Shown piece after piece: positions 9,026 to 10,151 of a stretch of DNA of 46,945 nt. Source of the DNA: Acidobacteriota bacterium (GTDB lineage Bacteria; Acidobacteriota; Vicinamibacteria; Vicinamibacterales; CAVVIG01); NCBI GenBank assembly GCA_025463215.1, contig JAOBWF010000060.1:1-46945 (forward strand), in the 5' to 3' direction. The notes under the pieces were generated by a model. That model worked only from the letters and a program-made list of their open reading frames with translations. It was not told the DNA's origin and searched no databases. The position numbers were made by a program, and so were the translations under genes. How positions within the stretch are numbered: the stretch's first letter is position 1; every line of letters begins with the position of its first letter.

Positions 9026-9409
9026 TCACCGCACCATGGTGTCGAGCAGGTGCTGCAGCGTTTTCTCGGGATCGTCGGTGCGGCCGGTGTGAACCGGCGA
9101 CATCTGGATGATCGTGCTGCGCGGCGACACCAGCCAATGGAACCGGTTGCGCTGCGGCAGCGCACCGATCTCGCCGGCCTCGGCAGCGCCCCGGCAGACG
9201 CGCGGGATGACCTCGAGGTGCGCCCGAGCGGCGTCGAGATCGAGCGACGGATCGAGCGCGAGCAGCCGCGCCGCGTCCAGCTCGATCCGGGCGTCGAGGA
9301 AATCGGCGGACGGGCACGACAGGATGACGCCGACGTTGATCAGCTCGCCGCGCTCGACGCGCGGCACCACCCGGATTACGGCGTAGTCGTAGGTGTGCTC
9401 ACCGGACAC
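9026..9409 (-). CDS. DUF3037 family protein
   Basis: A 127-aa cytoplasmic protein matching DUF3037. It opens YDYAVIRVVPRVERGELINVGVIL, then FLDARIELDAARLLALDP, and ends RTDDPEKTLQHLLDTMV. No biochemical function is known for the family. The start is GTG at 9409, with GAGGAGG 7 nt upstream inside the previous gene. It overlaps the HipA-like kinase gene by 11 bp, so the two are co-translated. This tight pairing suggests that the product is a partner, substrate or regulator of that kinase. It is the last gene of the operon; the 158-bp gap that follows holds no gene I can support and must contain the DUF305 promoter. Confidence 0.85.
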   Translation of the reverse strand: MSGEHTYDYAVIRVVPRVERGELINVGVILSCPSADFLDARIELDAARLLALDPSLDLDAARAHLEVIPRVCRGAAEAGEIGALPQRNRFHWLVSPRSTIIQMSPVHTGRTDDPEKTLQHLLDTMVR

Positions 9410-10151
9410 GAACGGCCTCCTCGACGAACGCCCGCGGCGCCGCCAGCCGATCGACCAGATACCGGCCGTAGGCCGCGCGCTGTGCGGGGCCCTGTTCGAG
9501 CCAGCTCTCGGGAATCCGCGCGACGATCGCGTCGATGACGGCCGGCGTCAGCCTCGCCGCCATCTCCATGTCGACGGCGGCGAGCAGTCCGGCGCGCCGC
9601 AGCAGCACGTTCTCCTTGATCAGCGGAAACGGCGTCCGCGACCTGGCGCGATCGGTCATCCAGCCTTCGGCGTGGTGAAAGTACAGCGTCGCGCCGTGGT
9701 CGATCAGCCAGAGCCGCTTGTGCCACATCAGCATGTTGGTATTGCGCACCGTGCGATCGACGTTGGTGACGTAGGCGTCGAACCAGACGATGCGCGAGGC
9801 GAGATCGGAGGAGACCTGCTCGACGACCGGATCGAACATGACGGATGAGGGCAGATAGTCGAGCCCGAGGTTGAGGCCGGCGCTGTCGCGGATCAACGCG
9901 AAGATCTCCGGGTCGGGCTCGGTCCGCGCCAGATCGGGATCGAGCTCGGCGAACACCAGCTCCGGCACCGGCAACCCGAGCGCCCGCGCGATCTCGCCGG
10001 ATACGAGCTCCGCAATCAAGGCCTTCGGCCCCTGGCCGGCGCCGCGGAACTTCAGCACGTACAATCCTTCGTCATCGGCCTCGACGATCGCGGGCAGCGA
10101 TCCGCCTTCCCGCAGCGGCGTGACATAGCGCGTGACCCGGACCGTTCTCAC
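9399..10151 (-). CDS. HipA-like family protein kinase
   Basis: A 250-aa protein of the short HipA-like kinase family. It lacks the N-terminal subdomain of HipA toxins. Visible kinase features are K34 in LYVLKF, a helix with E48 (ALIAELVSGEIARALG), the catalytic-loop motif NVDRTVRNTNML with D132 and N137/N139, and a metal-binding IDHG (D151) replacing DFG/DFD. All key residues are present, so activity is expected. HipA itself phosphorylates a tRNA synthetase; substrates of this short group are unknown to me. The start is GTG at 10151, 29 bp from the divergent MFS gene. The DUF3037 gene follows with an 11-bp overlap. No HipB-like DNA-binding antitoxin is present. Confidence 0.85.
   Translation of the reverse strand: MRTVRVTRYVTPLREGGSLPAIVEADDEGLYVLKFRGAGQGPKALIAELVSGEIARALGLPVPELVFAELDPDLARTEPDPEIFALIRDSAGLNLGLDYLPSSVMFDPVVEQVSSDLASRIVWFDAYVTNVDRTVRNTNMLMWHKRLWLIDHGATLYFHHAEGWMTDRARSRTPFPLIKENVLLRRAGLLAAVDMEMAARLTPAVIDAIVARIPESWLEQGPAQRAAYGRYLVDRLAAPRAFVEEAVRVR

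Follow-up and report, generated by a model that had tools for sequence, protein, structure and literature searches.

A compact HipA-like kinase/DUF3037 gene pair on an Acidobacteriota chromosome, a probable kinase toxin with its candidate inhibitor

A HipA-like kinase gene that overlaps a DUF3037 gene raises the question of what the two proteins do together, and whether their pairing has been described before. Such a pair lies in the window analyzed here, i.e., the whole stretch of 46,945 nucleotides of Acidobacteriota DNA under study, and an earlier note made from these letters had proposed it as an undescribed two-gene module. We found that the pair belongs to the broad HipA-like kinase/DUF3037 family, having adjacent HipA_2 and DUF3037 genes with the catalytic residues intact. 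Its features are as follows:

9399..10151, minus strand: HipA_2-type minimal Ser/Thr kinase of 250 aa, GTG start (PF20613, E 4e-20; PDC-M66A, E 6e-25)
9026..9409, minus strand: compact DUF3037 protein of 127 aa, candidate kinase inhibitor, GTG start (PF11236, E 8e-45, full length)
9399..9409, minus strand: 11-bp gene overlap, with the kinase stop codon inside the DUF3037 gene (from the sequence)
9416..9422, minus strand: Shine-Dalgarno GAGGAGG, 6 nt 5' of the DUF3037 GTG, within the kinase E-E-A codons (from the sequence)

Both the 11-bp overlap and the strong ribosome site inside the kinase gene, as described in the earlier note, were confirmed at these positions. The E-E-A residues whose codons hold GAGGAGG are near-invariant, and the G+C contents at the three codon positions (0.70/0.45/0.88 for the kinase gene and 0.73/0.45/0.90 for the DUF3037 gene) follow a coding pattern. 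The pair is flanked by a DUF305 gene and a divergent MFS transporter gene. No HipB-like gene was found adjoining the kinase, the Pfam matches of its neighbours being to DUF3037, DUF305 and an MFS transporter, in agreement with the proposal that the kinase has no HipB partner here. Neither a sigma-70 promoter nor a terminator was found at the pair. Elsewhere in the window, Pfam matched a RecQ-type helicase, an FtsH-like protease and a PAS histidine kinase. The PADLOC matches of the window proteins resemble housekeeping genes, and the setting of the pair is that of an ordinary chromosome; among the PADLOC matches listed (25 of 31 families, for 35 window proteins), there was no retron reverse transcriptase near the pair.

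The DUF3037 protein is a short one. Against the 281-position PADLOC profile PDC-M66B, it aligned over positions 2-128 only (E 1e-11), i.e., without a C-terminal half, and each of the 18 compact partners in the alignment (17 besides the window protein) matched this profile. By contrast, the long forms L012 and L013, likewise from Acidobacteriota, covered positions 2-279 or 4-279 with E values of about 1e-50. The feature that defines the long form, a DUF3037 protein of ~280 aa with a C-terminal half, is thus absent from the window protein of 127 aa. DUF3037 matches across the phylum fell into two groups, one short and scoring above ~120 bits, the other long (about 270-290 aa) and scoring below 90 bits. 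Because the compact form lacks the C-terminal half, the putative inhibitor probably has no DNA-binding or sensing module of its own. The AF2 model of the window protein (pLDDT 92.5) consists of strands alternating with helices and had no clear fold match in the PDB (Foldseek best E 0.59 and VIA best Z 3.5, neither of them meaningful). Pfam gave no match to HipB or HTH families. A comparison with HipS yielded neither a sequence match nor a clear fold match, although a likeness may go unseen in a fold search. The DUF3037 number has also been given to IPR022542, which we take to be a different, similarly numbered DUF that is probably unrelated to the bacterial one. That entry was assigned to plant RST1 and human focadhesin (PMC6711988).

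The kinase answers well to its earlier description as a short, active-looking HipA-type enzyme. It matches HipA_2 and carries an ATP-binding Lys (K34), a helix-C Glu (E48), a catalytic Asp (D132), N137/N139 and a Mg-binding Asp (D151), and these six residues were invariant in 106/106 kinases of the compact subtype. A Gly-rich loop, REGGS, occupies residues 14-18, with E-G-G-S kept in 105 of the 106 sequences. Judged by these residues, the compact kinase looks catalytically intact. Its AF2 model (pLDDT 96.7) is that of a minimal kinase, for which the closest fold match was Helicobacter CtkA (Z 16.2, rmsd 3.4, 213 residues); PI4KII (Z 13.8) and Shewanella HipA (Z 11.6, 186 residues) were matched as well.

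A scan of named genomes gave at least 575 confirmed relatives, of which 80 were kept. These came from Acidobacteriota, Pseudomonadota, Chloroflexota, Cyanobacteriota, Myxococcota, Bacteroidota and others. In each of the 111 short-form loci fetched from other records, some of which are redundant (L009 and L044 are evidently one contig), the kinase gene immediately preceded the DUF3037 gene in the same orientation, and the pairing spans about nine phyla. Adjacency is therefore not limited to close relatives, and the idea that the genes form a functional pair was borne out. With starts inferred from profiles, the two genes overlapped in 109/111 loci, by 23 nt in 87 cases and by 11 nt in 14. A start codon stood at the inferred DUF3037 position in 94/113 short-form loci, and in 102/113 the preceding 20 nt contained a 5-nt Shine-Dalgarno core. 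Among 247 genomes of the phylum, short DUF3037 was present in 24, and a strong kinase match was found in exactly those 24, adjoining it in each. The distance matrices of the two proteins were correlated (r 0.66, against a largest value of 0.15 in 1000 permutations), a figure to which shared host phylogeny contributes. No conserved third gene accompanies the compact pairs, and the module therefore consists of two genes. The neighbours common to the window pair and its relatives amounted to generic ABC transporters and signalling proteins. The pair is also dispensable, given its patchy presence (10/60 close relatives carry the short form).

Several loci depart from this layout. No natural kinase-DUF3037 fusion occurred in 122 loci. 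At L010:859-1737 (minus strand), compact DUF3037 runs on into a DUF2204 nucleotidyltransferase domain, giving a protein of 292 aa that is either a fusion or a frameshift read-through. At G147:C1:3720174-3720931 (L017, L127), the kinase is split by a frameshift beside an intact DUF3037 gene, with intact kinases in related genomes; damage in this direction is what a harmful kinase would lead one to expect, albeit in a single case. Two further kinase ORFs, at L060:4290-4883 and L093:5613-6008, look N-terminally truncated (197 and 131 aa) beside intact DUF3037 genes, through either decay or sequencing error.

We consider it probable, with some reserve, that the window pair, as a compact representative of the HipA-like kinase/DUF3037 family, comprises a kinase toxin and a DUF3037 inhibitor that are translationally coupled. 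This reading is favoured because the kinase residues are invariant, the pairing is constant, the Shine-Dalgarno site and start are conserved, the distance matrices are correlated, the fold is that of CtkA, PI4KII and HipA, and related systems have been tested experimentally. By analogy with HipA and HipT, the kinase would arrest growth by phosphorylating a host target, either an aminoacyl-tRNA synthetase or another translation factor. The DUF3037 protein would bind the kinase and keep it inactive, with the order of the genes, kinase then inhibitor, and the internal ribosome site coupling synthesis of the inhibitor to that of the kinase. A stimulus, by analogy phage, would then release the kinase. 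The earlier suggestion that DUF3037 acts as a neutraliser is in line with what is known of relatives, in that deletion of the Retron-Sda1 DUF3037 gene is toxic, and by extension is plausible for the window pair. Two sets of observations speak against the toxin/inhibitor reading. The partners in tested systems are about twice as long, and the kinases of the compact and long forms are far apart, with a weak or absent profile match between them. In addition, compact pairs do not lie near defence genes and hardly ever occur on mobile elements, which sets them apart from most defence or toxin-antitoxin systems.

This genomic setting is what gives weight to another reading, which we consider possible though unlikely, namely that the two genes form a long-standing chromosomal signalling module, with a resident regulatory kinase and DUF3037 as its regulatory subunit or substrate, and take no part in toxicity or phage defence. 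The compact pair was found in 0/50,697 phages and on 6/72,556 plasmid records, one of which, at 11.9 Mb, is of chromosome size, while 2.9 million viral contigs gave one weak match. The kinase tree tracks host phyla with some exceptions, requiring 13 label changes where the minimum is 8 and the shuffled mean 43.5, and synteny is held among close relatives, e.g., in Steroidobacteraceae and Ktedonobacteria. There was likewise no enrichment in defence islands, with 10 PADLOC families near 20 compact pairs vs 38 near 20 control loci (E 1e-10), and the window itself is ordinary chromosome. The compact pair is thus in the main chromosomal and vertically inherited, and it is for this reason that we keep a non-immune role as a real, if minor, possibility. 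Set against it, however, are the patchy presence of the pair (10/60 close relatives, 24/247 genomes of the phylum), which is unusual for a housekeeping function, and the behaviour of tested relatives as toxin and neutraliser; vertical inheritance, moreover, is also seen in many chromosomal toxin-antitoxin pairs.

A related and more doubtful idea, which we put forward tentatively, is that the HipAD family began on the chromosome with the compact pair as its ancestral core, a resident switch made of a kinase and its inhibitor whose primary role is not immunity. The prophage-borne defence versions would have arisen from it when DUF3037 gained a further half for DNA binding or sensing. The single long-form query, like the compact pair, had no match among phages and few on plasmids. 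For this reason, the contrast in mobility between compact and long forms rests mainly on the published prophage setting in E. coli and on loci in Acidobacteriaceae.

In Acidobacteriaceae-type genomes (L143-L148, L150-L160, L162), a long-form HipA_2/DUF3037 pair lies between the genes for a phage large terminase and a portal protein, for example at L145:5266-12540. The locus is mostly found beside purE-purK, often just upstream, and is syntenic across many genera at roughly 50-90% protein identity; a fuller version (L162) also includes a head-tail adaptor. This arrangement points to a phage packaging module, kinase pair included, that has been retained by vertical descent; the locus resembles a domesticated prophage or GTA-like module.

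A classical HipBA-type system, in which DUF3037, like HipB, would bind DNA as antitoxin and autorepressor, shares with the window pair the HipA-type kinase fold and the two-gene operon. Given that DUF3037 has no match to HipB or HTH families, that its model has no clear PDB match, and that the DNA-binding-like part of tested relatives is precisely the C-terminal region absent from the compact form, we regard this reading as very improbable. Chance adjacency or spurious ORFs, a negligible prospect, were ruled out by full-length family matches and by the identical arrangement in 111 loci across phyla.

Amongst the experimentally tested systems that we found in the literature, none was a compact pair, although compact pairs may already be drawn in the neighbourhood supplement of PMC12548924. 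What appears from sequence comparison to be new here is the subtype, i.e., a DUF3037 domain alone, without the C-terminal half of the tested partners. In all of the tested HipA/DUF3037 systems the DUF3037 partner has two parts, which makes it hard to assign inhibition to one and sensing or DNA binding to the other. The widespread form consisting of DUF3037 only makes this division of labour directly testable: if compact DUF3037 neutralises the kinase, the DUF3037 domain is the inhibitory part and the C-terminal half provides an input of its own. The compact pair also offers a mostly vertical, non-prophage branch in which to ask what these kinases do outside phage defence.

Compared with known toxin-antitoxin systems, the window kinase has the HipA-type fold in common with HipBA, whereas the HTH antitoxin HipB is absent from the locus. 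No HipS-like protein, as in HipBST, was recognised by sequence or fold at the pair; the kinase has DUF3037 as its partner, with the partner gene lying downstream. Like HipT and CtkA, the window kinase is without the N-terminal subdomain of HipA (PMC8262856).

The closest likenesses are to systems already on record, and the claims that the module is undescribed and that its proteins have no assigned biochemical role did not survive the comparison. PADLOC already lists the kinase/DUF3037 pair as the phage-defence candidate PDC-M66, with the same two families in the same order as in the window; long members match its PDC-M66B profile end to end, whereas the window DUF3037 matches the first part only. 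Since both PADLOC and the literature cover the pair, the term "undescribed" was wrong; within the wider family, Retron-Sda1 (PMC12548924) and DS-6/HipAD (PMC13092281) are members that have been tested. In Retron-Sda1, the two accessory genes protect against phage Bas51 without the retron; deletion of the kinase abolishes defence, and deletion of DUF3037 is toxic (PMC12548924). The C-terminal region of its DUF3037 protein resembles the DNA-binding protein of type III-A1 retrons and is absent from the window protein (PMC12548924). DS-6 of E. coli, renamed HipAD, combines a HipA-like kinase with a DUF3037+DUF1829 partner; mutating a key predicted catalytic residue of DS-6A abolishes defence, and AlphaFold3 predicts an A:B complex with an ipTM of 0.76-0.79 (PMC13092281). 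According to the title of Brenes and Laub 2025, cited in PMC13092281, HipAD comes from E. coli prophages. DS-6/HipAD and the window pair thus have in common a HipA-like kinase and a DUF3037 protein with no HipB, but DS-6B has DUF1829 in addition and a prophage setting, whereas the compact form consists of DUF3037 only and is chromosomal.
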